A model generated the notes under the pieces. That model saw only the letters and a list, made by a program, of their open reading frames with translations. It searched no databases and was not told the DNA's origin. A stretch of DNA of 38,844 nt from a virus, in the IMG/VR virus record IMGVR_UViG_3300028782_000004, positions 1-38,844 of that record; one strand, 5' to 3'. Positions 10,071 to 35,511 of this stretch are shown here, piece by piece. The position numbers and the translations under genes were made by a program. Each line of letters opens with the position of its first letter. Positions within the stretch are counted from its first letter, which is position 1.

Positions 10071-10073
10071 GGC

Positions 10074-10543: not shown

Positions 10544-10553
10544 CGGGGTTGGA

Positions 10554-10760
10554 TTACGAGCCGGACGGGCTCGAATCGGGCGTCAGGGCACGGATCTTCA
10601 TCGGACCCTTGCCACCGCCGGTGGTGACATCGACGGTGGGCTTGCCGCTCGGGTACCGCGGCTTGGCCTTGCCCTTGGCCATGTTGAGCTGGTGGGTGAT
10701 GGTGTCGGGCGGCAGCAGCGCCTGAACGCTCTCGCCGTAGGGGGTGACGATCTTGACCAT
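10554..10760 (-). CDS. Small head-module protein, 68 aa
   Basis: Begins MVKIVTPYGESVQALLPPD and is followed by a basic, Gly/Pro/Ser-rich tail (GGGKGPMKIRALTPDSSPSG), probably flexible. GGAGATCCAAC before ATG 10760 provides a good ribosome binding site. It is flanked by hairpins and follows the capsid gene directly. It may be a head decoration or minor capsid component; there is no motif to decide. Confidence 0.65.
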   Translation of the reverse strand: MVKIVTPYGESVQALLPPDTITHQLNMAKGKAKPRYPSGKPTVDVTTGGGKGPMKIRALTPDSSPSGS

Positions 10761-10801
10761 GTTGGATCTCCAGGTGAAGGTTGCAGTTTGCGGGTTGAGG
10801 C

Positions 10802-10820
10802 GCCCGGCCTGGGGCCGGGC
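10802..10820 (-). terminator. Hairpin after the capsid gene
   Basis: A perfect 8-bp stem GCCCGGCC / GGCCGGGC with a 3-base loop lies just after the capsid stop (10828-10830) on the transcribed strand. It lacks a U-tract. Hairpins 3' of capsid genes commonly stabilise or segment late mRNA, which would allow high capsid yield; that role is inferred. Confidence 0.55.
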
Positions 10821-10827
10821 TGCCTGC

Positions 10828-11760: not shown

Positions 11761-11805
11761 GGTGTTTCCTTGGTGGTTGGCGCGTTACCCGGCATGTGGC
11801 CGGAA

Positions 11806-12813
11806 TCACTGCCCCAATCGCCGCTCGAACTCCACACGCTCTTGATCCGTCACGTACCCTGGCTGACCAATCCGCTTCGTCGCCGCTCGCTTGTAGAAGT
11901 CCGCAATCTCCTTCGGACTCGGACGCCCCGTGGCACCGGTGTTCGGCTGCCGATTCGGGGGTACATCCCCGGTCGGCTGAGCACCTTTGCCGCGCGGCGC
12001 CACAGGGGGCGTCGGCGCTGGAGCAGGTGCCGGCACGGGCTGCAGCGTGGCCTGGTACGCCTTGAACATCCTGGCCACCCGGGGCGCGTCGCGCCGACCG
12101 TTGTGCCTGTCCAAAGTGACCTGCCGCTGCTCGCCGGTGTCGTCATCCGTTTCCGCCAACCACTCCAACCACGCCGGGTCCTTGTCGATCGTGAGGCAAT
12201 CGGGGACCAGTTCCAGCAGCTTGGCGATGTAGCGTTCCTGGGCTTCGTCCTCCGCGGCTCTCGCTGCGGCGGCTTGCTGCTCCTGGATCGGCTTCAGGGC
12301 CTCCTGGGCGCTGTCTTGGGCGACCTTCTGCGCCGTGGCGATCATCGCCTGGCACTTCGCTTCACCCAGCGTCTCGATCTCCTCGGCACTGAAGTGCTTC
12401 GACAGATCGACTGGTGCTTGTGGTTGCGCGGCTTTCAGGTCACGGACCTGCTCCTGCAACTTGGTCATCTCCTGGCGATGCAGCGCTTTTTCGGTCCGGC
12501 GTTCCTCCGCGATGGCGGCCAACCGTCCTGAGATTGAGCGGTTCTTCTGCTCAAGATCACCGATCTGCCGGAGCAGATCCTGGATGGTCGGCAGCACCGG
12601 TGCGGTGGGTGCCAGATCGACGGGCGGGGCCGTCGTTACAGGAGGGGTTGCGTTCTCGGTCGGGGGTGCCTCAGTTGCCTGGGGCGCAGCACCGGTCGGG
12701 TCCGCGGGATCTTGTCTCCGGTCCTTCTTGCCGTACTGCTCGTCGAGCTTCGTGCTCTTTCGCAGTACCGCACGGGGGAGGCGTGTGGTGTTCAACGTGG
12801 CGTCAGGGGCCAT
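11806..12813 (-). CDS. Scaffold protein, 335 aa
   Basis: Highly charged, low-complexity protein: Pro/Thr/Ala-rich linkers (residues about 40-75), a long coiled coil (about 80-150, LRQIGDLEQKNRSISGRLAA), a second helical segment (about 155-185) and a basic Pro-rich region, ending with ADFYKRAATKRIGQPG. This is the usual composition and position (portal, scaffold, coat) of a podovirus scaffold that drives procapsid assembly and then leaves. It starts with ATG 12813 about 80 bases after the 81-aa gene. No protease motif is seen. Confidence 0.85.
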   Translation of the reverse strand: MAPDATLNTTRLPRAVLRKSTKLDEQYGKKDRRQDPADPTGAAPQATEAPPTENATPPVTTAPPVDLAPTAPVLPTIQDLLRQIGDLEQKNRSISGRLAAIAEERRTEKALHRQEMTKLQEQVRDLKAAQPQAPVDLSKHFSAEEIETLGEAKCQAMIATAQKVAQDSAQEALKPIQEQQAAAARAAEDEAQERYIAKLLELVPDCLTIDKDPAWLEWLAETDDDTGEQRQVTLDRHNGRRDAPRVARMFKAYQATLQPVPAPAPAPTPPVAPRGKGAQPTGDVPPNRQPNTGATGRPSPKEIADFYKRAATKRIGQPGYVTDQERVEFERRLGQ

Positions 12814-12895
12814 TAGTCAGGTCTCCGCGAGCAGGACACGCAAGGGTCCAGATGTCGCATGCTCGGGGGAGGCGAGACACCCCTGCCCAGCCTGT

Positions 12896-13141
12896 TTACG
12901 CCGTCAGCCGGGGCGCACGAGGCGCGGACTGGGGCGCAGATTTGGCGCTGAGCTTGGCGATCAGCCAGTCGAGCCGGCCTGCGTCACCTTGCGCCCGGTA
13001 CATGCCCTGGTCGCTCAGTTTCCGCAAACTCTGCTCTACGGCCGCCAGCTCGGCGCCGAGGATCTCTTGCAACGACCGGGCGTCGGGGGTTCGCGAGAAC
13101 CGCTCCAAGAACGCAAGTTGGTCGTTGGTCAGTTGATTCAT
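12896..13141 (-). CDS. Small hypothetical protein, 81 aa
   Basis: A helical, soluble protein (LTNDQLAFLERFSRTP, ELAAVEQSLRKLSDQG) with an AKLSAKSAPQSAPRAP tail. It starts a few bases after the portal stop. Position between portal and scaffold suggests a head-morphogenesis accessory. No family recognised. Confidence 0.75.
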   Translation of the reverse strand: MNQLTNDQLAFLERFSRTPDARSLQEILGAELAAVEQSLRKLSDQGMYRAQGDAGRLDWLIAKLSAKSAPQSAPRAPRLTA

Positions 13142-13150
13142 TGGGGTGGA

Positions 13151-15352
13151 TTATGCACCAGGCGCCTTCGGCGGGGCCAACCGGGCCGCCACCGCGGATT
13201 TCACGATATCGGCCGTGAGTTCCGCCTCCTGGCCCTGGCTCTCGCGCTGGGCGATGCCCTGCTCCTTGGCGGCCTGGAGCTGCATCTGCATCTGCAGTTG
13301 AGCCTGCTCAGCCTGCTGCTGGGCTTTGGCCTGCTCCTGCATGCGCTGGCCCATGGCCTCAGCGGTGGGCACCAGGTCCATCGGCAACTGCATCACGGCC
13401 GCCACTTCGCGCAGCGTCTCCAGGATCGCCTCGTTGCCGAGGATGTTGGCCAGCAGCGGGTTGGTCACCAGCGTCAGGAACTGCAGCCGGCGTTGCTGCA
13501 TCGACTCGCGGATCAGGATCGCGGCCGCGCCGCGGGGCACCACGATCGAGTCGCCCTTGATCGTGCGATCTGGGTTGTAGAGCATCTCGTTGACGAACGT
13601 GTTGCCGATCGTCGGCGCGATCACGTTGGCGTCGATGTTCCCGATGCTGCGGCGCAGACCCTTGGCCGAGTTGTTCATCAGCGTGTGCAGGCCGCTGGCC
13701 GTGTCCGCACTGCCGCCGGAGCGCTCGTTGCCGTAGGCGTAGCGTGGGATGCCGGTGCTGTCGTCGGCCTTCAACTCCCACTTCTCCAGCGCCGCCATGA
13801 GGTTGACGCTGTTGTCGTTGGGTTGGAAGAAGCCCACGCCCGGGTTCACACCCTGGGTCGGGTCGCTCTTGAGCTGGAACATCTTCCACGGGAACAGTTC
13901 CAGCGACTGCTCGCCATCCGCCAGGCGGTCGTTGTGGATCCAGCCCATGGGCCCGGAGGCAATGGCCCAGTTGTTGGCCATGGCGCACACCAGCCCGTTG
14001 CACATCTTCTGCGGCGTGGAGGCCAGCTCCGGGATGCTGCGGCCCCAGAACGCGCCCGGCACGGCGTCGTAACACGCCTTGTGGTACGGACGCTGCTGCA
14101 TCGGGTCGGTGTTCAGCGACGCGTAGAGCACGTAGGAGCCGCACAGCAGGGCGTTGCACTCGTACTCGCGGGTGTCCTCCAGGTCGCCGGTCACGCCCCA
14201 GGACTTGAGCTTCCAGCCCGGCACGGACCCCCAGTAGTTCAGAGCGTCGATCACCCCGGGAGGTGAGAGCCACATATACAGGGTCTCGTGCTCGAGCTGC
14301 TGGCGCTCGGATTCCGTCCACAGCCATCCTTCCAGGTGGCCGTTGGTGTAGTCCATCAGCGCGCTGTCGATCTGGTCGTCGCGGTACCCGGGCAGGCCCT
14401 TGAGGTCCCAGAGTTCACTGCGCTGGAAGCGCACGCGCTCGATGAAGTCCCCGGTCTGCGGGTCCTTGGCGGCCGGGGACGGGAACGCGTCGAAGGGGCT
14501 GACCCGCTCCCAGGTCTGCGCCGCATCGTTGGTGACGTGCGGCGTGAAGCCCTCACCCCAACTCAGGCGCTTGTGCCGGGCGTAGAACGGGCCCTTGAGG
14601 ATGGCGGCCGGGTAGGTCACGAAGTCCTCGATGAACTCGTCCATAGCCGCGTGGTAGCCGCCTTGGGCAAGCCGGTCCGCGATCACCTTCTCCATGCGCT
14701 TGGCCCGGGTCTCGGCGATCTTCACGAACGTGGCCTCGGCCTCGTCGCGTAGTTTCTCGCCCAGCTCCATCACCATGTCGCGGAAGTCGCCCGGCTCCAG
14801 CGGCTCACCACCGCTCTGGACGATCTGCTGCATGATCTGCTGGCCCTGCTTGAGCGCCTTCTTGACCACGGCGTTCTTGACCGCGGCCGGCAGATCAGGC
14901 ATCGGCGTGGCGCCAACGCCCCACGGCTGCTCACCTTCCGGCAGCACGATCTCGCGGATCCAGGCGGAGGCCGCGCGGCACTTCACCTCGGTGAGCGGGT
15001 GCCACACCAGGTTGCCGCCGCCCATGCCCTCCATGATCTGGATTTCCTGGGGGCTGTAGATCTCGCGGCGGGCACGCAGGCAGGCCAGCAGTTTCTGGCC
15101 GATCCGCTCCTTGGCGAGCTTGTTCCGGTTCCAGGCCAGGCGCACGTGGCCGGCGAGGGCCGACTCTGCGGCCGAGCCCTCGATCTCGGTGGTGGACTGC
15201 GGGAGCTTCTCCTTCTCCGCGTCCAGCACCTCCTGGAGGCCCATCCGCTGCACCAGCGGGTTACCACCACCCTCCGGCCGCGGGTCGAAACGCCGGCCGC
15301 CGGTCTGCGGGTCGGTGCTGGAGGTGAGCGTAGGGCGGGCTGCGAGTGCCAT
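13151..15352 (-). CDS. Portal protein, P22 type, 733 aa
   Basis: The size, long C-terminal coiled-coil/Gln-rich barrel (about 660-720, QMQMQLQAAKEQG) and recognisable wing and clip segments (DEFIEDFVTYPAAILKGP, WGRSIPELASTPQKMCNGL) identify a P22-like portal: the dodecameric channel through which terminase loads DNA and to which the tail attaches. Order terminase, HNH, portal, scaffold, coat is canonical. ATG 15352 has no convincing Shine-Dalgarno sequence and no in-frame alternative exists because a stop lies at 15362-15364. The region just upstream contains two terminators, so portal transcription may start locally or by read-through. Confidence 0.92.
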   Translation of the reverse strand: MALAARPTLTSSTDPQTGGRRFDPRPEGGGNPLVQRMGLQEVLDAEKEKLPQSTTEIEGSAAESALAGHVRLAWNRNKLAKERIGQKLLACLRARREIYSPQEIQIMEGMGGGNLVWHPLTEVKCRAASAWIREIVLPEGEQPWGVGATPMPDLPAAVKNAVVKKALKQGQQIMQQIVQSGGEPLEPGDFRDMVMELGEKLRDEAEATFVKIAETRAKRMEKVIADRLAQGGYHAAMDEFIEDFVTYPAAILKGPFYARHKRLSWGEGFTPHVTNDAAQTWERVSPFDAFPSPAAKDPQTGDFIERVRFQRSELWDLKGLPGYRDDQIDSALMDYTNGHLEGWLWTESERQQLEHETLYMWLSPPGVIDALNYWGSVPGWKLKSWGVTGDLEDTREYECNALLCGSYVLYASLNTDPMQQRPYHKACYDAVPGAFWGRSIPELASTPQKMCNGLVCAMANNWAIASGPMGWIHNDRLADGEQSLELFPWKMFQLKSDPTQGVNPGVGFFQPNDNSVNLMAALEKWELKADDSTGIPRYAYGNERSGGSADTASGLHTLMNNSAKGLRRSIGNIDANVIAPTIGNTFVNEMLYNPDRTIKGDSIVVPRGAAAILIRESMQQRRLQFLTLVTNPLLANILGNEAILETLREVAAVMQLPMDLVPTAEAMGQRMQEQAKAQQQAEQAQLQMQMQLQAAKEQGIAQRESQGQEAELTADIVKSAVAARLAPPKAPGA

Positions 15353-15383
15353 GGGACCGGATTATGCACTGGACCCAGAAAGA

Positions 15384-15410
15384 GAAACCCCGGCACGGGG
15401 CCGGGGGTTC
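15384..15410 (-). terminator. Rho-independent terminator-like hairpin upstream of portal
   Basis: On the minus strand a CCCCGGC / GCCGGGG stem with short extra pairs is followed by TTTCTCTTTCT. It is the second terminator between the HNH gene and portal. It lies 32 bases before the portal start codon. Confidence 0.6.
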
Positions 15411-15454
15411 AATCGTCACGAGGACGGCGCCTTGGAGAAAGCGACGCCAGTGTA

Positions 15455-15482
15455 CCAAAGAAAACGGCCCGGAGAGGGCCGT
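15455..15482 (-). terminator. Rho-independent terminator after the HNH gene
   Basis: Minus strand: ACGGCCC-tctcc-GGGCCGT followed by TTTCTTT, a 7-bp stem with T-rich tail. It would end transcripts from the terminase-HNH segment. Confidence 0.75.
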
Positions 15483-15545
15483 AACGTGAGGCAGAGGCGG
15501 AAAGAAGAAAGGACCTGCGCAGTGTGGCTCAGGACTTGGAGGTTG

Positions 15546-16196
15546 TCAACCCAGGGGTGCGTCGATTGCCGGTGGGTGGCCCAGCCGGCGCCGGATGCCA
15601 CAGCCTCTGGAGCAACACTCCTGGCCACCCTTCCGGTACTTGTTGAAGGTGAATGTCGTCCCGCACTGGAGGCACGAGCCTACGGCGGTCTTGTGCCTGA
15701 TACGGCCTTCTTTCTGCTCGCACGAGTGGGAGCAGAACCGTGACCGGTCAGGGAAGTACGTCTGGTACGCCGCAGTGCAGACGGAGCACACCGCAGCCAC
15801 TGGTTCGCGCTTCTCCCATGCCTGGAGGGAGTTCTTGGCGTGCCACTCACGGCCTTCCGGCGATGCATGCCACTCGGCCGCTTTGCCGGAGTTGTCTCTC
15901 AACGCCTGGATGGCCTTCGCCCTGAACTCAGGCTCCGCCATACGCTGCAGTTGGTGTTCTCGGCGGTGCTTGGAGATGGATCGCACTTCCAAGTTGCCCG
16001 GAGCGTTGTTCCTCCAGTCCTCATCCAGGTGGTGCACCTCTGTCCCTTCAGGGATCGGCCCGAAGTTGTCGGTCCAAATGCGACGGTGTAGCAGTCGCTC
16101 CTTGGCATTCGGGCCGTGACGACCGGACTGGAAGTACCGGCCGGTCGTCTGCAACCAAAACTTTTCACCGTTGTAGACTACGAATTCTCTTGGCAT
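15546..16196 (-). CDS. HNH homing endonuclease with C-terminal Zn fingers, 216 aa
   Basis: The HNH core is residues about 36-80: HRRIWTDNFGPIPEGTEVHH (the HH pair), then DEDWRNNAPGNLEVRSISKH (the N and H of the motif). The C-terminal third has two Cys clusters (CSVCTAAYQTYFPDRSRFC...CEQ and CLQCGTTFTFNKYRKGG...CC) that probably bind zinc and DNA. The start is ATG 16196 with AAGGAG seven bases away. Its place beside the terminase gene is typical of free-standing homing endonucleases of phages. It cuts DNA to spread itself or disadvantages related phages; HNH nucleases next to terminases can also assist packaging cleavage. Confidence 0.88.
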   Translation of the reverse strand: MPREFVVYNGEKFWLQTTGRYFQSGRHGPNAKERLLHRRIWTDNFGPIPEGTEVHHLDEDWRNNAPGNLEVRSISKHRREHQLQRMAEPEFRAKAIQALRDNSGKAAEWHASPEGREWHAKNSLQAWEKREPVAAVCSVCTAAYQTYFPDRSRFCSHSCEQKEGRIRHKTAVGSCLQCGTTFTFNKYRKGGQECCSRGCGIRRRLGHPPAIDAPLG

Positions 16197-16230
16197 AGCG
16201 GATCTCCTTAGTCTCGCTATTGTGCCAGAT

Positions 16231-17730
16231 TCAGGACGTTCTCGACCAGATTACCGTCCGACGTTTCGTAGGGATAACCTTGGCTCTGGTTGTGGTAATC
16301 TTAACGAGATCGGGGGCGAAGCTGATCGCTAAGGAGTCGGCGCGGTCCGGCGACTTACCTCCATTCTTCTTCATGTCCTTCTTGCTCTGCAACGAGATCC
16401 TGAACCGGTCGTCGTGGCCGTAGTCCAGACTCGTGAGCTGGTTGCTCAGGTCGTCCTCGTCCGGGATCTGCCCGCTCTCCAGCCACTCCCGCATCTTGCC
16501 CCAGCACTCGCTGCGCTGGTTGCGGTACTGCTTGTCGTCGCTCGCCGGCACGCCCCACTGAATCGGCATCAGGTGCGGTAGGCCCTGCATGCGGCGCAGC
16601 GCCGAGTCCAAGTCCGCTCCGTTGCCGATGGCGTCGTACGCGATGCACGAGATCGGCCCCTCCTTGCGGCACAGCTCGAACACGCGGCCGGCCAGGTCCA
16701 CGCCGTCGAAGCCTTGCAAGGCCACCTGCAGCAGGACCTTGAGGCCTTGCCGGATCGTGATGACCGACGAGTCGTCCCCGAAGCGGGCCGGGTCGATCGC
16801 CATGATCTTCGGGTATGCGCGGTAGGTCTCCGGTTTGAGCCGGCGGCGGCGGGCGTTGAACACCAGCTCGGGCGAGATGAAGTTGCTGTAGCCGGCCCGC
16901 GGGAACATACCCTTGACGTGCACCCGCACGAAGTCCGAGTCCTCCCCCTCCTCGTCGATCCACGCCTGGATCTCCTCCTTGTTCGTGAAGCTCACCTCGC
17001 GGCTGTCTACCCGGGTCACGACGTTGCGGTTGGGCTTCGTGCACCGGTTGAAGAACATCCCGGACGTGCGCGTCGGGTTGCCGTAGCGCAGCCACAGGAT
17101 CTGAGTGCGGGCGTCCGTGAGGGTCCCGCGCATGCCCTCCCAGATCTTGTCGCTGATAGCAGACGCCTCGTCGAAGATCACGATCAGCCGCTTGCCCTGG
17201 TTGTGCAGGCCGTTGAACGACTCGGTGTTCGACTCGCTCCACGGGATTGCATCCACCCGCCACGCCTTCTCCCGCACCTTGTCGTTGGCGATGTAGATGC
17301 TGGTGGCTGTGAAGGTGAACAGGTCCCTGGCGATGAAGAGCTGGTGCCACTTGCTCAACTCCGCCCACGTCTTGGTCCGGAGTTGCGAGTCGGTGTTGGC
17401 GGTCACCACGCCGCGGGTGTCCTTGTGGGTGCTGACCGACCACAGGATAAGCCACGACACCAGCGCCGACTTGCCGACCCCGCGGCCGGCCACCGTGTCC
17501 TCCTCGATCACGCAGCCCTGTGCGGGACTGGCGGCTCCCGCGCGCAGGCGCTCACCGATGCGCTTGAGCTGCGCCTCCTGCCACGGCTGCGGGCCGGCCT
17601 GGTCTTCGAGCGAGGTCCCGAACTCACCCCACGGGAACGCCCACATCACGAAGCCGTAAGGGTCGTTGCAATACCGCTCCAGCCCGTCCATCACGCGGTC
17701 CAGGGCGGTACCTTCAATGGCGGCGTTCAT
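16231..17730 (-). CDS. terL: Terminase large subunit, 499 aa
   Basis: Packaging motor ATPase and nuclease. Walker A AGRGVGKSA (about 81-89), Walker B RLIVIFDEASA (about 181-191), and the nuclease signature IMAIDPARFGDDSS (309-322, D313) with CIAYDAIGNGADLD (362-375, D366) and a C-terminal DRADSLAISF. The start is ATG 17730, with AGGAG five bases upstream; the longer open frame to a TTG at 17850 adds about 40 Pro/Arg residues and is not believed. The C-terminal codons (16231-16310) look less GC-rich, possibly from conversion by the adjacent HNH gene. Works with the small subunit two genes upstream. Confidence 0.95.
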   Translation of the reverse strand: MNAAIEGTALDRVMDGLERYCNDPYGFVMWAFPWGEFGTSLEDQAGPQPWQEAQLKRIGERLRAGAASPAQGCVIEEDTVAGRGVGKSALVSWLILWSVSTHKDTRGVVTANTDSQLRTKTWAELSKWHQLFIARDLFTFTATSIYIANDKVREKAWRVDAIPWSESNTESFNGLHNQGKRLIVIFDEASAISDKIWEGMRGTLTDARTQILWLRYGNPTRTSGMFFNRCTKPNRNVVTRVDSREVSFTNKEEIQAWIDEEGEDSDFVRVHVKGMFPRAGYSNFISPELVFNARRRRLKPETYRAYPKIMAIDPARFGDDSSVITIRQGLKVLLQVALQGFDGVDLAGRVFELCRKEGPISCIAYDAIGNGADLDSALRRMQGLPHLMPIQWGVPASDDKQYRNQRSECWGKMREWLESGQIPDEDDLSNQLTSLDYGHDDRFRISLQSKKDMKKNGGKSPDRADSLAISFAPDLVKITTTRAKVIPTKRRTVIWSRTS

Positions 17731-17772
17731 GGCGTCTCCTGGACGGATCGGGACTCTGCATTGGGGTGGGGG

Positions 17773-17823
17773 AGCCCGTACGGTCGTGATGCCGGCCGGT
17801 AGGCCAGGCAGCCGTACGGGGCT
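17773..17823 (-). promoter_or_regulatory. Large imperfect inverted repeat before terL
   Basis: AGCCCGTACGG (17773-17783) and CCGTACGGGGCT (17812-17823) pair with one bulged base around a GC-rich inner hairpin. It lies in the 109-bp gap before terL. It has no U-tract, so attenuation, mRNA stability or a protein-binding role are all possible. Confidence 0.45.
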
Positions 17824-17839
17824 GGCATTGATGGTCCCT

Positions 17840-18094
17840 TTAGTAGCCAATTCCCTTGCCTTGGTACGAGGCTTCCTCCAGCAGGTCCTCGGCCATGTCC
17901 GCGGTGGTGCCCTCCGGCGGTTCCGCAGCCAACTGCGAGCGCACGCGGCCGGTGGCCAGGCTGACGGCGAGGGTGTTGCCGACGCCGGTGGCCTTGGCTC
18001 GGAAGTCGGCGGCCGGTTGCAGTTCGGCGACGTGGGTGGCGCCGTGCGGGGTGGGAGTGAAGTTCGGGCTGCGCTTGCTGTAGTTGCAGGTCAT
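17840..18094 (-). CDS. Hypothetical protein between terminase subunits, 84 aa
   Basis: Starts MTCNYSKRSPNFTPTPHG at ATG 18094, with a CGGAG site upstream, and ends EEASYQGKGIGY. Hydrophilic and without visible motif. Its position between small and large terminase genes suggests a packaging accessory, but nothing in the sequence proves it. Confidence 0.7.
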   Translation of the reverse strand: MTCNYSKRSPNFTPTPHGATHVAELQPAADFRAKATGVGNTLAVSLATGRVRSQLAAEPPEGTTADMAEDLLEEASYQGKGIGY

Positions 18095-18133
18095 GGCGGT
18101 GTGCTCCGGAGTTGGGGACCGTAGGGGAGAGGG

Positions 18134-18874
18134 TCAGGACCCGTAGTCTACGGCCCTGGGCTCGCGGATGACTGCATCCTCGATAGGCTGCGCTGGGGCA
18201 GTGCCGTGCATCCGCTTCTGGGCCCGGTCGAGCCGATCGGCCAGGGCGCTGGCGAGCGCGTTCACGCCGTCGCCCTCGTCGCCCACCAACTTGAAGTGCT
18301 TGGCCAGCAGGGTGAGGGCCGACATCCGGTCCGACATCCGCAGCTTCTTGACGCTGGTCACGCTGCGCATGCCCTCGGTCAGCGTGCGCTCCACCTTCGT
18401 CTCCACGTCCACCGACGAGATCGCCATGGCCGTGTCGTCGTCGAGCTGGTTGATCGGCACCATTCCACCCTCGTCGTCGAACGCCCGGCGGATGTCCGCG
18501 AAGGCGATTCGACCAATGGCGTGCATCACCTTGCCGGCGGTTATGTCCGCGGCAGCGAGGCGTTCTTGCGTCTTCTTCGCGATTGCGGCCTGGAGGCGCG
18601 GGTCACTGCTGCAGCGGTCGATAGGCAGTACCGTCTTGCGGGCGACTATCTCGGCGGCCTGCAACTCCAGGTTGCCCCGTGCGGAGATGCGCTCGGCGTA
18701 CTCGGCGGTCTCCTCCTCGACGCGCTGGAGCCGCTGCTCGGCATCCGGGTCTCCGGCTGCTGCTGCCCGCTCTGCGGTGGCCCGCTTCCGGATGATATTG
18801 CCGCTTTTGGCAGGCTTTTTCACCGGGGGACGCTTCGGAAGTAGCGATTTGAGGTGGGCAGCAATATCGTCCAT
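18134..18874 (-). CDS. terS: Terminase small subunit, 246 aa
   Basis: The Terminase_2-type core is clear: MHAIGRIAFADIRRAF (about residues 116-131) followed by DDDTAMAISSVDVETK (about 146-161) and a KLRMSDRMSALTLLAKHF segment (about 179-196). A basic/Ala N-terminal region with a helical arm (AERAAAAGDPDAEQRLQR) would provide DNA binding; the subunit recognises the packaging site and recruits TerL. No Shine-Dalgarno precedes ATG 18874; the upstream DNA is AT-rich and palindromic. First gene of the late operon. Confidence 0.9.
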   Translation of the reverse strand: MDDIAAHLKSLLPKRPPVKKPAKSGNIIRKRATAERAAAAGDPDAEQRLQRVEEETAEYAERISARGNLELQAAEIVARKTVLPIDRCSSDPRLQAAIAKKTQERLAAADITAGKVMHAIGRIAFADIRRAFDDEGGMVPINQLDDDTAMAISSVDVETKVERTLTEGMRSVTSVKKLRMSDRMSALTLLAKHFKLVGDEGDGVNALASALADRLDRAQKRMHGTAPAQPIEDAVIREPRAVDYGS

Positions 18875-28457: not shown

Positions 28458-28733
28458 ATGAGCACTGAACCAGAACGCCTCGACCTTGCAGGCGGCAAGT
28501 ACACGATCGTCAACAACATGGGCCGGTTGTCAGCCCTGCGCTACGGCCAGCCGTGGCGTGAGCAGGACCTGCTGGGTGACAACCTCGTGGGTGCGCTGTT
28601 CATGGAGCTGCAGCAGGCCCGCGAGGCTCTGCAGAACGTGCACGACTACGTGCGAGGCAAGGACAGCATGTACGCCAACGGGGCACTGAACCAGTTCTGT
28701 GAGGAAGGTCTCGGCATCAGGAAACCGGAATGA
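28458..28733 (+). CDS. Hypothetical protein, 91 aa
   Basis: ATG 28458 after CCGAAAGGGCACCTAC. Acidic/polar, MSTEPERLDLAGGKYTIVNN, with FMELQQAREALQNVHDYVRG as a helix. Last gene of the accessory cluster before the terminator. Function unknown. Confidence 0.75.
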   Translation: MSTEPERLDLAGGKYTIVNNMGRLSALRYGQPWREQDLLGDNLVGALFMELQQAREALQNVHDYVRGKDSMYANGALNQFCEEGLGIRKPE

Positions 28734-28814
28734 ACTGCGGCGGCATCGCCATTGCCAATTAACCAAGCTGGCGGCTGTGTCTGCTTGCTCCAAACCCTGA
28801 ACCCGTAGAATGAC

Positions 28815-28851
28815 GAAGCCCGCGCAGCGCTACCAACGCTGTGCGGGCTTC
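28815..28851 (+). terminator. Strong hairpin, probable terminator of the accessory cluster
   Basis: GAAGCCCGCGCAGCG and CGCTGTGCGGGCTTC form a 15-bp stem (one G-U) with a 7-base loop, in the 143-bp gap before the HNH gene. The downstream T-run is poor, so termination may be partial or Rho-assisted. Confidence 0.65.
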
Positions 28852-28876
28852 TGACCACTCTGCGAGGACACGCACC

Positions 28877-29392
28877 ATGGCTACTGCCGATTCTCTCACC
28901 GCCGCTCGGTTGCGTGAGGTTCTCTCCTACGATCCGGACACAGGAATTTTCACTTGGCAGGTCAACACAGGACCAAGGGCGAAGGTTGGGGCTGTCGCTG
29001 GGACACTTGACGGGGGTGGGTACGTTAGGATCAAGGTGGACGGGCGCAAATACGGCGCGCACCGCCTCGCATGGTTGTTTGTCTTCGACGTGTGGCCAGA
29101 GACCGGAGTCGATCACCGCGATGGTGTCGGATCGAACAACCGGATCAAGAACCTGCGGCTCGCTACCCAGGCGTTGAACATGCAGAACCAGAGGAAGGCA
29201 CGTTCAAACAGCAAGTGCGGCCTGCTCGGTGTGAGCCCAAACGGGAATCTGTGGAAGGCCAGGATCGTGGTGGACGGGGTGCACGAGTACCTCGGGACGT
29301 TCACCACCCCCGAGCTAGCACATGCCGCATACCTGGCAGCCAAGGCGCTCTACCATCCGTTTCAAACCCTCGTCACTCCGGCAGGAGCCTGA
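28877..29392 (+). CDS. HNH-AP2 homing endonuclease, 171 aa
   Basis: Start at ATG 28877 after GAGGACACGCACC. An N-terminal YDPDTGIFTWQV segment leads to the HNH_3-type core YGAHRLAWLFVFDVWPETGV plus DHRDGVGSNN (H and N residues at about 54-90), then a C-terminal AP2-like DNA-binding domain (GLLGVSPNGNLWKARIVVDG ... TTPELAHAAYLAAK). A free-standing mobile endonuclease; its 3' end overlaps the opposing helicase gene by 20 bases. Self-spreading element of phages, not required for phage growth. Confidence 0.88.
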   Translation: MATADSLTAARLREVLSYDPDTGIFTWQVNTGPRAKVGAVAGTLDGGGYVRIKVDGRKYGAHRLAWLFVFDVWPETGVDHRDGVGSNNRIKNLRLATQALNMQNQRKARSNSKCGLLGVSPNGNLWKARIVVDGVHEYLGTFTTPELAHAAYLAAKALYHPFQTLVTPAGA

Positions 29393-30938
29393 TCCCTTCG
29401 ACGCGCAGCACGTCGCGGCGGCCACCACCTTCGACTGAGGCTTTGCCGTGCGTGAATCGGCAACCTGGGACTGCCCGGCGAAGCTCCGCGGCAAACTTCT
29501 GGCGGCTCATCACGTAGACGCCCGACTCCTTGCACCAACTGCTGTACGTCGGGTACAAGCCCCCACCCATACCGCCGGGCTCGGTCAGTAGCTCCGTCCA
29601 TCCTTGAGTCCCGCCAGTCCCCTCCCCTCCTCTTGTTACGGCACTCTGGTCCACCTCGCAGCATTCGGACACGAACGCCTTCACGCGGTCCTGCTCGGCC
29701 TGGTACTCGGCCTTGGCGGCCAGCACCACCGAGGGCGGCCGCAGCCCGGTCTCAAACCACTCGCGAGCGCCAGCCACGATCCAGGCCAGCACGCCCTCAA
29801 GCTCCTCGCGGCGCGCGAGCTTGGCGGCCAGGTCCTGATCCTTGAGCCACTGTGTCTCACCCGTGGCTACCTGGTCCTCGGTACCGAAGAGCTGCAGGTA
29901 TGGCACCAACAACACCCGCCGCCAGATTCCATGATCTTGACCTTTTATGACAGGTTTGAAGTTGGTCATCAACTGCAACTTGTGGGTGGGAGTGAACTCG
30001 AAGAAGTCCTGATTCATGTACCGGGCCTTGATTTTGTCGTCCCCGGTCACACCCTTGATGAACGCCTCGCGCAGCGTCATGCCGTCCCCGGTCTCCTTGG
30101 CGGTGACCATACGCCGGCCCTTCAGGTCCGCGATCTCGGTGGGGTGGCGGCTATCGCCGTCGCCTCGCGAGTCGGCCATCAGGCCGGGCGCGGCCGCACC
30201 GGCGTACTCACCCAGCGCCCGCTCTATGGTGCTCATGACCAGCGACTTGCCGTTCGACCCCTTGCCCCAGTGCACGACGAATGCCTGCTCGCGCACGCTG
30301 CCAGTGGCGCAGTACCCGAACCATCGTTGCAAGAACCCGACCAGCGCTGCGTCCCCGCCCGCGATCTGCCCGAGCACGGTCTCCCACAGCACGCTTCGGG
30401 CTTCGGGCTTGTAGTCCAGGTCCGTCAGCTTGGTGATGAGGTCCTCGGAGCGGTGCTCGCGCAGAGCGCCGGTGCGCAGGTCCACAGTGCCGTTGCGGCA
30501 GTTCAGCAGCCACGGGTCGCGGTCCATCACCTCGATGTCCACGGTCAACATTTTGCGGAGCAGGCCCACCGCGGCGTCGATGCGCGGCTTCATCTCGCAC
30601 TCGCGAGCCCAGGCCCGCAAGGCGTCGGCGCTCTCCTCCTCCCACGGCTTGGCCTTGGCCGCCTCGCGCTCGGCGCGCTCGGCCAGGGTCACGGCCTTGC
30701 GAGCCTGGTGTCGGGCCTCAGTGGCAGCCTTGCGGGCCAGCGTGGCCGCAGCCTTGGCCTCGACCGTCTTCTCGACCCCGGCCTTAGCCACCGCGGTCGC
30801 GGCGATGCCCTCCAGCCGGTCGGCGGTGGCCAGCAGGTTGCCGGCACGTTCGGTTGCAGCCTCCGCGACCTCGGCCAGCTCGCTGCGGCTGGCCTCGTAC
30901 TCGGCTCGGACCTTGGTGTCGTCGGTGGCGGTGGTCAC
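29373..30938 (-). CDS. SF3/D5-type replicative helicase, 521 aa
   Basis: GTG start at 30938, overlapping the DUF3850 stop as GTGA; the ORF continues upstream in frame but is shadow sequence. Residues about 1-115 are an unusual charged Ala/Glu/Arg coiled coil. Then comes the D5_N/helicase part: DPWLLNCRNGTVDLRTGALR (141-160), Walker A GKGSNGKS (225-232), GRRMVTAKE as Walker B (274-282), motif C LQLMTNFKPVI (321-331) and the IWRRVLLVPY arginine-finger region (338-347). The protein would form a ring helicase at the replication fork. It lacks the primase part, which is encoded separately 1.6 kb upstream. Confidence 0.9.
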   Translation of the reverse strand: MTTATDDTKVRAEYEASRSELAEVAEAATERAGNLLATADRLEGIAATAVAKAGVEKTVEAKAAATLARKAATEARHQARKAVTLAERAEREAAKAKPWEEESADALRAWARECEMKPRIDAAVGLLRKMLTVDIEVMDRDPWLLNCRNGTVDLRTGALREHRSEDLITKLTDLDYKPEARSVLWETVLGQIAGGDAALVGFLQRWFGYCATGSVREQAFVVHWGKGSNGKSLVMSTIERALGEYAGAAAPGLMADSRGDGDSRHPTEIADLKGRRMVTAKETGDGMTLREAFIKGVTGDDKIKARYMNQDFFEFTPTHKLQLMTNFKPVIKGQDHGIWRRVLLVPYLQLFGTEDQVATGETQWLKDQDLAAKLARREELEGVLAWIVAGAREWFETGLRPPSVVLAAKAEYQAEQDRVKAFVSECCEVDQSAVTRGGEGTGGTQGWTELLTEPGGMGGGLYPTYSSWCKESGVYVMSRQKFAAELRRAVPGCRFTHGKASVEGGGRRDVLRVEGIRLLPE

Positions 30939-31195
30939 GTCAAAGTCCTCACGCTCATCCAGGGCCCGAGCCCCAAGCCGATGTACCCTGGCCGGAGCCC
31001 AGGCGCCCCGGGGCTCAGGAGGTAGGTCACCTCGCGCAGGCACTCGCGGCCGGTGTAGGCGGCCTCCATGGGGCACCACTCACGCAGGTGGAGCACGTCA
31101 CCCTTCTGGTAGTTGCGGTCATTGAGCCGCAACTCGAAGGGCTTGACGTAGAGGTCGTTGAAGTACCTGGACCAGCACTTGAGTTCGTGCTTCAT
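30935..31195 (-). CDS. DUF3850 (ASCH/PUA-like) protein, 86 aa
   Basis: HELKCWSRYFNDLYVKPFEL + RLNDRNYQKGDVLHLREWCP + YTGRECLREVTYLLSPGAPG match the DUF3850 family, an ASCH/PUA-like fold with the F-E-x-R-x-N-D-R core. Such small proteins are frequent in phages and are suspected to bind RNA or modified nucleotides; function unproven. AGGAG precedes ATG 31195. It lies directly upstream of the helicase. Confidence 0.85.
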   Translation of the reverse strand: MKHELKCWSRYFNDLYVKPFELRLNDRNYQKGDVLHLREWCPMEAAYTGRECLREVTYLLSPGAPGLRPGYIGLGLGPWMSVRTLT

Positions 31196-31389
31196 GAGGG
31201 ATTCTCCTGGTCACGCCGGAGCAGGATGTCAAACCGCTCCTTCCACTCGGCGAGTTCGTCTTCAGCTTTCGAGAGTCGTACGAGGGCCCGATGACGCTCC
31301 TGCTTCACCTGCCAAAGCTCGTCTCGCAACTCCTTGGCCTCGCGCTTTGCGGTTCTCAACTGGGTCGCTTCACTCGGTAGCCTGGCCAT
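31192..31389 (-). CDS. Small coiled-coil protein, 65 aa
   Basis: MARLPSEATQLRTAKREAKE followed by a charged helix (ELWQVKQERHRALVRLSKAE). Excellent SD AAAGGAGG seven bases upstream of ATG 31389. Overlaps the previous gene by 20 bases and the next by four. Unknown. Confidence 0.7.
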   Translation of the reverse strand: MARLPSEATQLRTAKREAKELRDELWQVKQERHRALVRLSKAEDELAEWKERFDILLRRDQENPS

Positions 31390-31576
31390 GCGCGCCTCCT
31401 TTGCGTCGTGCGTCCATCCAACCCAGCTCCCAGAGCCCGGCGTCGTGATCGCCGAGAGGGTGGGGGTTGGTCAGGCCGTCGTAGTAGCCGTTCCAGCCTG
31501 CGCGGTACGGGCTGTACGTTGGGTCGTTGCCGGGTTTGGAGTTGAACACCAGGTGGCTCTTGTATCTTCCGTCCAT
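31370..31576 (-). CDS. RMF-like small phage protein, 68 aa
   Basis: The YRAGWNGYYDGLTNPHPLGD ... AGLWELGWMDARRKG pattern (G-x2-GY-x2-G-L-x-NP-x-P, W-x2-GW) resembles small phage proteins with weak similarity to ribosome modulation factor. The similarity is short and low-confidence. Starts 6 bases after the preceding stop. Confidence 0.65.
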   Translation of the reverse strand: MDGRYKSHLVFNSKPGNDPTYSPYRAGWNGYYDGLTNPHPLGDHDAGLWELGWMDARRKGGAHGQATE

Positions 31577-31581
31577 GGCGA

Positions 31582-31791
31582 TCAGCCCAGCAGGTCCAGG
31601 TCGACCTCCGGCAGCGGCGTAGGCGTCGGCTCCTCAGTAGGCGTCGGCTCCTCAGTAGGCGCGAACCGCGAGTCGTACTCCAGCATTGCTTGGTCTGCGT
31701 ATTCGGCAGCGACCTCAATTACGCAGTTTCTCAGTGTGGCGAGGTATACCTCGCGCCAGAAGTCTCGGCAATCTTGCTGATGGTCGTTCAC
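31582..31791 (-). CDS. Small hypothetical protein, 69 aa
   Basis: MNDHQQDCRDFWREVYLATL ... with an Ala/Glu/Asp helix and a repeated APTEEPTPTEEPTPTPLPEV tail. An ATGA overlap joins it to the previous gene. Disordered C-terminus; no family recognised. Confidence 0.65.
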   Translation of the reverse strand: MNDHQQDCRDFWREVYLATLRNCVIEVAAEYADQAMLEYDSRFAPTEEPTPTEEPTPTPLPEVDLDLLG

Positions 31792-32099
31792 TTTGACATC
31801 TCCTCGAACACGTGAAGGGGCGGCGAGCTGGGACTACTCCACGACCCGATGTACTTGGCCTTGGCACCCCAGGGAAGCTTGTCGCAGTTGCGCAGCAGGT
31901 ACATCGTGCGCTTCTCGGTCGTTGCTGGCGTGTCATCATCCTCGGTGTACCGACACACCAGCCCGAAACCCCAACCGATCGGACCTGAAAGACCCAGGAT
32001 CTCGGCGGTGTGAGGCACCTCGCACCACGCCTCTACGATGCCGTCACCCGACCCCGTGGTCCTGGCAACGACAGTGAACTCGTCTACTACCGTTTTCAT
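31788..32099 (-). CDS. Hypothetical protein, 103 aa
   Basis: MKTVVDEFTVVARTTGSGDG with beta-like segments (IVEAWCEVPHTAEILG, GWGFGLVCRYTEDDD). AAAGGA upstream of ATG 32099 inside a GGAAAACTGAATGAA leader like that of the next upstream gene. Part of the six-gene block between primase and helicase. Confidence 0.75.
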   Translation of the reverse strand: MKTVVDEFTVVARTTGSGDGIVEAWCEVPHTAEILGLSGPIGWGFGLVCRYTEDDDTPATTEKRTMYLLRNCDKLPWGAKAKYIGSWSSPSSPPLHVFEEMSK

Positions 32100-32111
32100 T
32101 CAGTTTTCCTT

Positions 32112-32561
32112 TCAATGCGTTACAGGTTTAAAGGCCCAGGCCTTGGCAAACAAAACAGCCACGCCCTTTTCTAATTCTCTCTTGATGGCATCCTGCGCCA
32201 GAATTGCGCGCTGACCGGCGGCATGTACCGCGATGGCGGCTCCGCGATGCGTGTCCGGCCCGGCGTCGTCCGGAGGTATGGCAGCAGCCACTTCGGCCTC
32301 AAAGCGAACCGATACTTGGGCCATACCTGAGCGAAACGCTTCTGAGAGTCTGTCCAGATCATTAGAAAAAGGGTCTTTGGCATAGAACGGCAGGGTCCGA
32401 AACGCCCACCCCCAGTCTACGAAGCCCGCCAGTTCAATGCAGGATTCTTCGTTCACTTCGGTAATCTGGATTGGGCCCCGGCTTTCCAGTTCAGCCAATA
32501 GCTCTTCCCGATTGCTCGCTTGACACACCACAGCAAGACGGTTCAACGTTACGGTGTTCAC
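32112..32561 (-). CDS. Hypothetical protein, 149 aa
   Basis: GTG start at 32561 overlapping the primase TGA, with AAGGAG inside the primase 3' end. N-terminal beta-alpha part (NRLAVVCQASNREELLAELE), aromatic middle (DWGWAFRTLPFYAKDPFSND), helical Ala-rich end. First of the genes inserted between primase and helicase. No family recognised. Confidence 0.75.
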   Translation of the reverse strand: MNTVTLNRLAVVCQASNREELLAELESRGPIQITEVNEESCIELAGFVDWGWAFRTLPFYAKDPFSNDLDRLSEAFRSGMAQVSVRFEAEVAAAIPPDDAGPDTHRGAAIAVHAAGQRAILAQDAIKRELEKGVAVLFAKAWAFKPVTH

Positions 32562-33850
32562 TCAGTTTTCTCCTTCGCTCGTTGCAACAACACGCGCGCC
32601 TCGTCCCCGACGATGCGGGAGAGTTGACACGCGTACCTGTAGATTCCTGCCTCGTCCAGCGCCCAGCGCTTGCCGTCGTCGATATACCACTTGTCGCCTG
32701 CACACAGCGCCCGGTGACCGTAGGCCTTGACCAGCCTGTTGGCATTGGCTTGGTCCGTGGTCTTGTGCTCGGCCGCCGGAACACCGCGGCGCCTGACCGG
32801 TGCGGCACTCTCCGCCACCCCAGCATCTTCAACCCCTTCGCCTTCCTCGGTCAACACCGAGAACGCGCTGTCGTCCAGCGGCTCCTGCCACCCGTTGCCG
32901 CGGGCCATGGCCATGATCGTGTTGCCGGTGATCGGCTGCGCGTGGTCGCTGCGCACGAACGGCCACACCCGCTCACGCAGGAAGTCCAAGTCGGCCTTCG
33001 CGGATCGGGCGCTGAACTCCTCGACGATGGACAGGCCCTCCGGGCTGCCCCCGGTCTCGTAGTGGACGGCGAACACCACGTTGCGCCAGGCGTCGTAGTC
33101 CAGAGTCGCGGTGCCCGAGTTGGGGATCGCGTCCAGCGCCAGCATCCACGGCGTATCACGCTCCGCGGAGCGGGCCACGAGGCCGCGCTGGTGCTCAGGC
33201 CTCTCGACCACCGGCACGGGCGGGGACATGGGCCAGTGCATCCCGACCACCGACTCGCGGGGTACGATCTCCAGGATGCCGCTCAACTCCTCGAACTGCA
33301 GGAGTTCGGACTTGCCTGCGAGGGGCAGGATGAACTGGTTGCCGAAGCCATCCGGGGCCACGGCATCCTGCTTCGGGAACACCTCCACCTGTCCGGCGCT
33401 GACGCTCTTCACACCCGGCCGCAAGCCGCAGGACCTGAGCACCTCGGCCAACCACGTGCGCACGCTGTAGGCGTCCTGCGGGTCGTCCCAGAGGACGTAG
33501 AGGTGCACCCCGCGGCCACCGGTGGAGCGGAACAGCACCGGCACCGCGCCGTGGCACAACTCCAGCGCGCTGGCCACCAGCCACACGGTGTGGCTCATGG
33601 TCGCCCAGTTGGTCTCACCCTTGTGGCTGTCGAAGTCGAGCAGCCCGAGCATGGTGACCGACTCGCCGGCCTTGATGGGGCAGACCCCGCGGGCAGGACC
33701 TCCGTTGTAATGTTTGGCCAGGCGCTCAGGGGTCAGGGCCTGCTTGGTCCACGCCTGCAGCCCATCCAGCCGGCGGACCGCGGTCACGTCGGTGCGCACC
33801 CGGCTGGTGATGGGCTCCAGCGCAGCAATGAGTGGGTTGTCGGGGGTCAC
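32558..33850 (-). CDS. Archaeo-eukaryotic-type DNA primase with PriCT-2 and partial D5_N, 430 aa
   Basis: AEP-type primase core: HYNGGPARGVCPI (about 47-59), catalytic TMLGLLDFDSHKG (D72, D74), RSTGGRGVHLYVLW (H116) and GNQFILPLAGKS. A PriCT-2-like segment follows (ALDAIPNSGTATLDYDAWRN, about 248-267). The C-terminus (AYGHRALCAGDKWYIDDGKR ... ) is the beginning of a D5_N helicase domain that stops abruptly. Start is taken as GTG 33850, four bases after the ligase stop; ATG 33880 is an alternative. Lays primers for phage replication, working with the separate helicase at 29373-30938. Confidence 0.88.
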   Translation of the reverse strand: MTPDNPLIAALEPITSRVRTDVTAVRRLDGLQAWTKQALTPERLAKHYNGGPARGVCPIKAGESVTMLGLLDFDSHKGETNWATMSHTVWLVASALELCHGAVPVLFRSTGGRGVHLYVLWDDPQDAYSVRTWLAEVLRSCGLRPGVKSVSAGQVEVFPKQDAVAPDGFGNQFILPLAGKSELLQFEELSGILEIVPRESVVGMHWPMSPPVPVVERPEHQRGLVARSAERDTPWMLALDAIPNSGTATLDYDAWRNVVFAVHYETGGSPEGLSIVEEFSARSAKADLDFLRERVWPFVRSDHAQPITGNTIMAMARGNGWQEPLDDSAFSVLTEEGEGVEDAGVAESAAPVRRRGVPAAEHKTTDQANANRLVKAYGHRALCAGDKWYIDDGKRWALDEAGIYRYACQLSRIVGDEARVLLQRAKEKTE

Positions 33851-33854
33851 CCAC

Positions 33855-34385
33855 TCACACCTTCGACTTCGGTTCTGCATCCTTGTCCAGCGTCTTCTTG
33901 AAGTAGATGCGCGCCGCGGTGTGGTAGATCATGATGCCTTCCGCCTTCGCCGAATAGGCCGCGTAACTGCCGGTGTCTTTCAGGTCAGCCAGCACGCGAT
34001 CAACCACGCCCGTGTCGAACAACCCCTCCCAGAGAACCGGCACCACCGAGCAGCAAGCCGGAGGTGGCGTCTCCGCGGTCCAACGGCTGACGTTGAAGAG
34101 CGAGAACCTGCGCTCGGTGAGCCCGTAGCCGCGCTGGATGCCTCGACCCCACCACTCGCCGAAGTGGCGGCCTGGCCCGAGCGCCCGGAGTTCGCCCTCG
34201 TGCTCTTTCACCCACGCCGCGAACCCGAAGTTGTCGTCCTCGGGCGTGATCCAGCGAGTGCGGGACCCGGCGCTGATGGTGCCATCTTCACCCACGCAGA
34301 CCTGGGCGTTGGTGCCGTCGATCTTCTCGGTGATTACGACTTGCCGGCTGAGCCGGGCGATCTTGCCAAACGATTCAAATTCCAC
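33855..34385 (-). CDS. RNA ligase (Rnl2/DRB0094 type), 176 aa
   Basis: Nucleotidyltransferase motifs are in order: motif I TEKIDGTNAQ (Lys21 would be adenylated), motif III FGEWWGRGIQRGYG (75-88), motif IV AEGIMIY and motif V ARIYFKKTL. This is an ATP-dependent RNA ligase fold, shorter than T4 Rnl2 and without extra domain. Start is GTG 34385 with AAGGAG six bases upstream; longer frames are not believed. It could repair RNA broken by host anticodon nucleases. Overlaps the primase ATG alternative. Confidence 0.88.
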   Translation of the reverse strand: MEFESFGKIARLSRQVVITEKIDGTNAQVCVGEDGTISAGSRTRWITPEDDNFGFAAWVKEHEGELRALGPGRHFGEWWGRGIQRGYGLTERRFSLFNVSRWTAETPPPACCSVVPVLWEGLFDTGVVDRVLADLKDTGSYAAYSAKAEGIMIYHTAARIYFKKTLDKDAEPKSKV

Positions 34386-34387
34386 AG

Positions 34388-34474
34388 CTATCTCCTTCGT
34401 AGTGACCGCAGGATCTCCCACAGCACGTAGGCTGCGGCGAGGACCGCCAGCAGCCGGTTCAGTCTTCGACCCAT
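34388..34474 (-). CDS. Tiny membrane protein, 28 aa
   Basis: ATG 34474 lies in the end of the previous gene and TAG ends within the SD of the ligase: MGRRLNRLLAVLAAAYVLWE ... RSLRRR. A single Leu/Ala membrane helix bracketed by arginines. Too short for homology calls; the only support is the hydrophobic pattern and the tight fit to both neighbours. Confidence 0.45.
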   Translation of the reverse strand: MGRRLNRLLAVLAAAYVLWEILRSLRRR

Positions 34475-34662
34475 TGCAGCACCGTGTCGCCAGTCGCAAG
34501 GTCGGTGCTGGTGCTCAAGGTCCCGTAGATGACCCCGGTCGGGAACAGGACCCCGGCCACGGGGACCAGCGCGTCCCGCAACTCGTTCAGCAGGAGCTGG
34601 CCCTTGAGGACCTCGTTCTCGCGCTCCGCGAGGCGGTGCGCTGCGATTCGGATCTCGACCAT
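34459..34662 (-). CDS. Small hypothetical protein, 67 aa
   Basis: ATG 34662 lies two bases after the stop of the preceding gene: MVEIRIAAHRLAERENEVLK, a helix, then a hydrophobic VPVAGVLFPTGVIYGTL and TDLATGDTVLQWVED tail. Could be membrane-associated. Unknown. Confidence 0.65.
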   Translation of the reverse strand: MVEIRIAAHRLAERENEVLKGQLLLNELRDALVPVAGVLFPTGVIYGTLSTSTDLATGDTVLQWVED

Positions 34663-34663
34663 C

Positions 34664-34999
34664 TCAGATGCTCGGTGCTGCAGGGACTGGGGCCGGAATC
34701 GGGATGCAACCAACGAAGATGCGAAACTTGGCCCTGCCGGCCGCCGCTTCGACGGCGTTCTGCTGCAGTTCGCGCTTCGCTCGTGCCTCGCACGACTCGC
34801 GATCCGCGTACAGCGAACCGTGGATCTCGTGGTCCTCGTACACGCGCTCATCGACCTTGAGCGGCTGGGCGATCTTCACCATGGCGTACAGTACGTCTCC
34901 CGTCTTCACGGTCGGCGCGGCGTCAGCGGGCGTCGTGACGAGCGCCACGACCACAGCCGCAATCCCGATACCAACGATCCAGGCGTCTTCACGTGTCAT
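34664..34999 (-). CDS. Exported/anchored small protein, 111 aa
   Basis: MTREDAWIVGIGIAAVVVAL + VTTPADAAP is a typical signal peptide or anchor (cleavage possible after ADA). The mature part is charged with a KRELQQNAVEAAAGR helix and ends IPAPVPAAPSI. Probably periplasmic. ATGA overlap with the HTH gene. Confidence 0.7.
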   Translation of the reverse strand: MTREDAWIVGIGIAAVVVALVTTPADAAPTVKTGDVLYAMVKIAQPLKVDERVYEDHEIHGSLYADRESCEARAKRELQQNAVEAAAGRAKFRIFVGCIPIPAPVPAAPSI

Positions 35000-35247
35000 G
35001 ACTTCCCTTTCTTGCTCCGCTCACACTGGCGGGCGTACTCACAGGTGGCGCATGCGGACGAGAGGTCCGAGCGCGGGATGTGCAGGCCGATTTTCGCGGC
35101 GGCCCGCTCGATGCGGATGGCCATACCAGAACTCGCCTGGCGGCGGCCCGTCGCGATGTGCCGGATGACGGCTTCGCTTGTGGACATCTCCGCAGCAAGT
35201 TCGTGCCGCGTTGCCACATCCAGGTCTGAGAGGTTGGTCCGCTTCAT
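34996..35247 (-). CDS. Cro/YdaS-like HTH regulator with Cys cluster, 83 aa
   Basis: MKRTNLSDLDVATRHELAAE + MSTSEAVIRHIATGRRQASS is a Cro/YdaS-type helix-turn-helix (about 9-45), and the C-terminus has CATCEYARQC, a possible metal site. It lies first in the leftward operon next to a divergent promoter region containing repeated operators, so it is probably the early regulator that represses both directions. ATG 35247 has no SD and lies about three bases after the predicted transcription start, suggesting a leaderless mRNA. Confidence 0.85.
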   Translation of the reverse strand: MKRTNLSDLDVATRHELAAEMSTSEAVIRHIATGRRQASSGMAIRIERAAAKIGLHIPRSDLSSACATCEYARQCERSKKGKS

Positions 35248-35256
35248 GAGGGGCCG

Positions 35257-35330
35257 ACTGTAGCACTTGGTTCGGTAATCGCAAATACCGCGTAGGGGGT
35301 TGACACAATCCTTGGACCAAGTGCTACACT
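35257..35330. promoter_or_regulatory. Divergent early promoters with repeated operators
   Basis: Minus-strand promoter: TTGCGA (plus 35279-35284) and TACAGT (plus 35257-35262), 16-bp spacer, driving the HTH operon. Plus-strand promoter: TTGACA (35300-35305) and TACACT (35325-35330), 19-bp spacer, driving the gene at 35356. Each -10 overlaps a copy of ACCAAGTGCTACA (15-bp inverted repeat with one mismatch), and a CACTYGGTTCGSTA direct repeat occurs twice. The architecture fits one repressor controlling both. Confidence 0.6.
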
Positions 35331-35355
35331 CGGTTCGCTACTTCTGGGGAACAAA

Positions 35356-35511
35356 GTGAAGACGTGGTGGTACAGGATCTTGCTGTGGTGGGCATTGACT
35401 CGCTGGTCGAGGTCCGTGATCCAGGACGACGAGGACTCCAGGAAGCGAACCTGCAGGGTGAAAGCGCTCTGCGTTCTGATTCAACGACTCAACCAACGAA
35501 GGACCCCATGA
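35356..35511 (+). CDS. Small membrane-associated protein, 51 aa
   Basis: GTG 35356 after GGGGA; VKTWWYRILLWWALTRWSRS then a charged, basic C-terminal part ending QRLNQRRTP. The Trp/Leu-rich N-terminal helix suggests membrane association. The stop TGA is inside ATGA with the next gene, which supports reality. First gene of the rightward operon. Confidence 0.6.
   Translation: MKTWWYRILLWWALTRWSRSVIQDDEDSRKRTCRVKALCVLIQRLNQRRTP

Follow-up and report, generated by a model that had tools for sequence, protein, structure and literature searches.

A phage AEP primase-D5 helicase encoded by two genes, divided inside the D5_N domain and separated by a changing block of small genes

The window analysed here is the whole 38,844-nt stretch of IMG/VR virus record IMGVR_UViG_3300028782_000004. 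A structural module on its minus strand (5836-18874) contains genes for an internal virion protein, a major head protein, a portal/head-tail connector and a terminase, which points to a tailed phage, possibly podovirus-like. On the same strand, an AEP primase gene is followed by six small overlapping genes and a helicase gene, listed below together with their counterparts in two related IMG/VR contigs, L005 and L202.

33880-32558, minus strand: AEP primase, 440 aa, AEP-TOTE and PriCT_2 (Pfam), then the first half of D5_N at about residues 363-440
32561-32112, minus strand: 149-aa ORF, no family match (Pfam), absent from L005
32099-31788, minus strand: 103-aa ORF, weakly DUF7352-like (below cut-off), absent from L005
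31791-31582, minus strand: 69-aa ORF (g69), orthologue in L005 and homologue in L202
31576-31370, minus strand: 68-aa ORF, weak RMF-like match below cut-off, 71% identity to its L005 counterpart
31389-31192, minus strand: 65-aa ORF, coiled-coil-like, 66% identity to its L005 counterpart
31195-30935, minus strand: DUF3850 protein, 86 aa (PF12961, E=4.6e-20), last gene of the block, 98% identical to its L005 counterpart
30938-29373, minus strand: SF3/D5-type helicase, 521 aa, GTG start, with Pfam, PHROG and fold matches
30938-30654, minus strand: Ala/Glu/Arg-rich N-terminal extension of the helicase, residues 1-95, modelled as a hairpin, similar extension in L202

The initial annotation described a primase-helicase split at 30939-33850, with six small genes including a DUF3850 protein in the break. 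All six ORFs were found and the split does lie there, but the break itself extends from the primase stop at 32558 to the helicase start at 30938, and the block from 32561 to 30935. GTGA/ATGA overlaps connect the primase with the 149-aa gene, the 103-aa with the 69-aa gene, the 65-aa with the DUF3850 gene, and the DUF3850 gene with the helicase, whose GTG start (30938) overlaps the DUF3850 stop. The 68-aa and 65-aa genes overlap by 20 nt, and the remaining block junctions are gaps of 12 nt or less. A 568-aa version of the helicase frame was discarded, as it overlaps the DUF3850 gene and is unneeded. Neither a promoter-like site, in a scan with the sigma-70 consensus only, nor a minus-strand terminator-like site was detected in 28700-35400. 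Given these tight or overlapping junctions and no internal promoter- or terminator-like site, the simplest reading is that the run from primase to helicase is one translationally coupled operon. The GC3 of the 149-aa gene is 0.57, compared with 0.88 for the primase. Pfam and PHROG searches recognised no endonuclease among the six block genes.

Two neighbouring genes touch the ends of this run. An HNH_3 endonuclease ORF (28841-29392, plus strand, E=1.1e-10) is convergent with the helicase gene and overlaps its last 20 bases; L017 has a homologue of 47% identity upstream of its fused gene, and none was found in L005. This ORF was considered as the agent of the split, but it is not needed to keep the split, since it lies outside the block and no L005 homologue was found. 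At the other end, an RNA ligase gene (33855-34499, minus strand, PF09414, E=7e-13) overlaps the primase start, and L005 has a cytosine methylase gene at this place.

The primase contains an AEP catalytic domain (AEP-TOTE, E=6.5e-11), and the segments LDFDSH, GGRG-H and FILPLAG, which we take to be AEP motifs I (DxD), II (H) and III, are kept in an alignment of the primases of the split relatives. The helicase consists of an N-terminal helical hairpin (1-95), the second half of D5_N, an AAA+ core (DUF5906) and a Pox_D5-like C-terminus. Its SF3 AAA+ residues G225...GKS, E282, N326 and R340/R341 are conserved in two alignments, with Walker A, Walker B and motif C all present, and its fold matches AsfvPrimPol and SaPI5 structures. 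Of the 145 positions of Pfam D5_N (PF08706), the primase ORF covers 1-52 and the helicase ORF 36-143, which bears out the earlier proposal that the primase ends in the start of D5_N and that the helicase holds the remaining D5_N/SF3 part. In the fused relatives L028 and L015, D5_N positions 1-144 all fall in one ORF, 933 and 959 aa long, whereas the window has two ORFs 1.6 kb apart with D5_N divided between them, and thus not the single polypeptide of the fused family. Likewise, primase residues 355-434 match residues 347-426 of phrog_16950, a fused family of 843 aa, and the helicase matches 396-839. An HMM of the D5_N first half, made from relatives only, gave the primase tail 58.5 bits (E=2e-16), and the tail aligned with the corresponding segment of fused relatives at 37-62% identity, so the D5_N match in the primase is not due to chance.

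An AlphaFold2 model of the D5_N-helicase part of fused L028 (mean pLDDT 93) shows where the break falls in the collar. The modelled collar comprises helix 27-38, strands 42-45, 48-52 and 57-59, and helices 71-91, 95-114 and 118-131, in agreement with the topology published for the D5_N of D5, an N-terminal helix, a three-stranded sheet and a three-helix bundle (PMC9611036). The last residue of the window primase aligns with residue 91 of the L028 segment, the end of helix 71-91. In L028 a turn (92-94) and helix 95-114 follow, with pLDDT above 90 around the break, and in the alignment helix 99-113 of the window helicase stands in place of helix 95-114. The alignment with fused primase-helicases called for in the initial annotation thus located the break inside D5_N, just after L028 residue 91, and according to the model the cut is inside the collar, where the first bundle helix turns into the second. 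The D5_N second half of the window helicase, when modelled alone, reached a pLDDT of about 70, which is consistent with a missing partner and proves nothing.

HMMs of both D5_N halves were run on all fetched loci, and duplicate sequences were removed. Both halves were found in one ORF in 233 of 246 distinct relatives, a count that comes from pattern-based searches and describes relatives of the window helicase rather than an unbiased census; the statement that these parts form one polypeptide in many phages was thereby confirmed. Five relatives run off the contig end, and five scored as split, namely the window lineage (two sequence versions), L202, L025 and L089. The remaining three are L203, which lies at a contig edge, the frameshift-like L086, and L012, whose long single ORF gave no match to the first-half HMM. 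L089 and L086 were rejected as true splits since they look like frameshift errors. Among cultured phages, one record, BcepC6B, matches the primase, and the gene is fused there. A first profile scan of genome contigs gave no confirmed match; a second found relatives on bacterial contigs, none of them split except the frameshift-like L089. No earlier report of split D5_N or primase-helicase genes was found in the open-access literature.

The window shares its split with four further IMG/VR contigs, one of them (L005) at 93% amino acid identity, and with a fifth, L202, at 53% for the primase and 56% for the helicase. In L005 the block has four genes and is missing the 149-aa and 103-aa genes. L202 has the same split around an almost wholly different block of 2.3 kb, in which one ORF resembles PAPS reductase with a score below the Pfam cut-off. 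The six-gene block is therefore not what fixes the split. The g69 orthologue of L005 is the first gene after the primase, as is the g69 homologue of L202, whose score was reached by 0-1 of 1000 shuffles. In fused relatives, one block-gene homologue was found, a DUF3850 protein with 42% identity located elsewhere in L011. DUF3850 as a linker between the halves was rejected, since the L202 block is without it. With its content turning over between relatives, the gap between primase and helicase behaves as an accessory-gene slot. In L202, a truncated N-terminus resembling the L005 cytosine methylase is located within the gap (L202:5065) and is a possible remnant of earlier cargo.

A quick tree made without bootstrap placed the split lineages and L203 in one cluster (SH-aLRT 92-93), nested in a clade of 35 rows whose other members are fused; the tree's row L196, labelled fused, is the L005 contig and is actually split. 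Because the split sequences group together inside a fused clade, the simplest history suggested by these sequences would be one fission followed by block exchange. The split is old and has been maintained. Elsewhere in the family, L025 has its break at the same collar turn as the window, without any insert, and a ribosome-binding-like AAAGGAG stands ahead of an internal ATG; the L025 cut is either an independent fission there or a frameshift.

Both pieces are under selection. Between the window and L005, dN/dS was 0.14 for the primase and 0.13 for the helicase. The 78 codons of primase residues 363-440 showed 14 synonymous and 0 nonsynonymous changes, and helicase residues 61-195 showed 16 and 0. 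With synonymous changes only, the two D5_N half-domains are under strong purifying constraint while apart.

The initial annotation also suggested that a long charged Ala/Glu/Arg helix on the helicase may replace the covalent link. The N-terminal extension is real, but it is predicted to be an antiparallel hairpin of two helices (5-56 and 59-95) and not a single helix. A similar extension is carried by the L202 helicase. At the turn where the window enzyme is cut, fused relatives carry helical insertions of variable length, short in most but about 70 aa in L310, L190, L332 and L343. The extension is therefore better seen as an existing collar hairpin that was enlarged and severed at the base than as a new replacement for the covalent link. 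Residues 1-60 are weakly constrained between the window and L005 (dN/dS about 0.6), and residues 61-103, with the second hairpin helix, have 7 synonymous and 0 nonsynonymous changes. The second helix might serve in docking and may pack against the terminal helix of the primase. At the contig edge of L203 (1-150), an Ala/Glu/Arg repeat ORF (AEAARTAAEAART...) is directly upstream of a closely related helicase; the coiled coil may sit on the other polypeptide there.

Could the two proteins be an ordinary pair, a separate primase and D5 helicase that are each complete members of normally separate families? Stand-alone D5_N helicases with a separate primase do exist (L062, L075, L083 and L085), but they have D5_N in the helicase ORF, whereas the window helicase is without positions 1-35 and the primase has 1-52. 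Since normally separate helicases of the same type (L062, L075, L085) hold the entire D5_N, and the nearest relatives of both window proteins are single ORFs (L028, L015), an ordinary pair is very improbable. The comparison supports descent of the pair from a single fused polypeptide, with the break inside D5_N and not at the usual border between primase and helicase domains. When a conserved phage replication gene is interrupted, the cause is often an intron or intein, and a group I/II intron or an intein removed from RNA or protein would restore the fused enzyme. Such an element is extremely improbable: there was no Rfam match in the window, nor in 29300-33900 at E up to 1, the Pfam scan gave no intein match, and no ribozyme or splicing domain was recognisable in these scans of the window. 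Moreover, the primase has its own stop and the helicase its own start, and the interruption consists of tightly overlapping genes (GTGA/ATGA) that are almost wholly different between relatives. The sequences are derived from metagenomes, and a few relatives (L089, L086) do resemble frameshift errors. However, a sequencing or assembly artefact is almost certainly not the explanation, because five other contigs share the split, including one at 93% identity whose block is smaller and, in a distinct lineage, L202 with another block.

A further explanation accepts the fission and holds that the halves work apart, the helicase forming a ring with a partial collar and its own hairpin while the D5_N stub of the primase is a remnant. 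Since some helicase families function without a D5_N-type collar, each half-domain might act by itself, and the helicase starts with a predicted hairpin of its own. A remnant should decay, yet the stub shows no nonsynonymous change against 14 synonymous ones, and L202 retains it at an overall identity of 53%. We consider independent working of the halves unlikely.

Fused phage AEP primase-D5 helicases (phrog_16950, BcepC6B gp46, L028 and L015) have the same domains in the same order, and both window halves are 42-54% identical to L015 and L028. They are one polypeptide with an intact D5_N, whereas the window has two, broken inside D5_N. Vaccinia D5-type helicases, ASFV C962R, MPXV E5 and the SaPI5 primase-helicase are alike in fold and collar topology (fold matches of the fused model and/or the window helicase to 8iqi, E=4e-22, 8wgy, 8xj8 and 7ola), but there the collar is built by one chain. 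A parallel in gene organisation comes from T4-like genes in pieces (T4 gp39/gp60, Aeh1 nrdA and phage 25 gp43A/B), in which a conserved enzyme of replication or nucleotide metabolism is likewise encoded by two genes, with products that in those phages must reassemble (PMC2988022). As in those cases, relatives of the window have the gene whole (233 contiguous) and both pieces are under selection. The insertions in T4-like phages contain a homing endonuclease or are associated with one, or consist of untranslated intercistronic sequence (PMC2988022). The window gap is instead a changing cassette of small genes with no recognised endonuclease, the HNH ORF being outside it at the helicase 3' end, and the split has outlasted the turnover of its cargo. 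SCCmec also encodes its priming and D5-type helicase proteins separately, and its CCPol-MP and Cch2 bind each other, but the primase type differs (A-family polymerase) and Cch2 is described as carrying a D5_N-type domain itself (PMC7581432).

We consider it quite probable that an ancestor phage had a single AEP-primase/D5-helicase polypeptide, that gene fission cut the exposed turn joining bundle helices one and two of the collar, that the block genes came between the halves and have been exchanged since, and that the collar is rebuilt in trans. The primase now ends with the N-terminal helix, three-stranded sheet and first bundle helix of the collar, and the helicase begins with the enlarged, predicted hairpin and the second and third bundle helices, followed by the AAA+ motor. 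Through their complementary half-domains the two proteins would most likely restore the collar of a hexamer made of six copies of each, and ring formation by the helicase, perhaps also its ATPase, would need the primase. The comparisons establish where the break lies, that the gene was once fused, that the split has persisted and that both half-domains are under purifying selection, whereas reassembly, stoichiometry and the need for the primase are inferred. In vaccinia D5, the collar is an independent structural domain of the hexamer/D5_N, and an oligomerisation region was reported at residues 323-381 (PMC9611036). By topology, and not by residue alignment, the primase tail may correspond to most of this region. 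Reassembly of split phage enzymes has precedents in Aeh1 NrdA, which has full activity, and in phage 25 gp43A/B, which co-purify (PMC2988022). A tentative extension, which we regard as possible, is that the motor would assemble only on or with the primase as a 6+6 primosome, and that the cut site would be a long-lived cassette slot in which small accessory genes of the replication operon are swapped.

In L278, L281, L283, L286, L288, L297 and L298 the primase gene is cut elsewhere, with the AEP domain in its own ORF, which ends just after motif III and 0 to 1.4 kb before the rest. The gap in L298 is filled by a C5-cytosine methylase gene (PF00145, E=3.5e-10), and no Rfam intron was found in these cuts. 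The AEP primase-D5 helicase family seems prone to fission with cargo. Junctions resembling GAG-CAG-CT-ATGG-TGA/TAG recur at L202:4125, L202:4928 and the AEP ORF ends of L281, L278 and L288; the start of the next gene and a ribosome-binding-like sequence are embedded there, which gives several unrelated proteins the C-terminus EQLW or one like it. This recurrent sequence is possibly a homology that aids cassette exchange.

Split phage genes are already known, and those reviewed in PMC2988022 involve homing endonucleases or untranslated intercistronic sequence. Here the cut runs through the ring-building domain of a D5-type helicase and has persisted through replacement of the genes in between. 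Should each collar subunit depend on the primase for one half, priming and unwinding, usually coupled covalently in this family, would be linked through an assembly step that is measurable.
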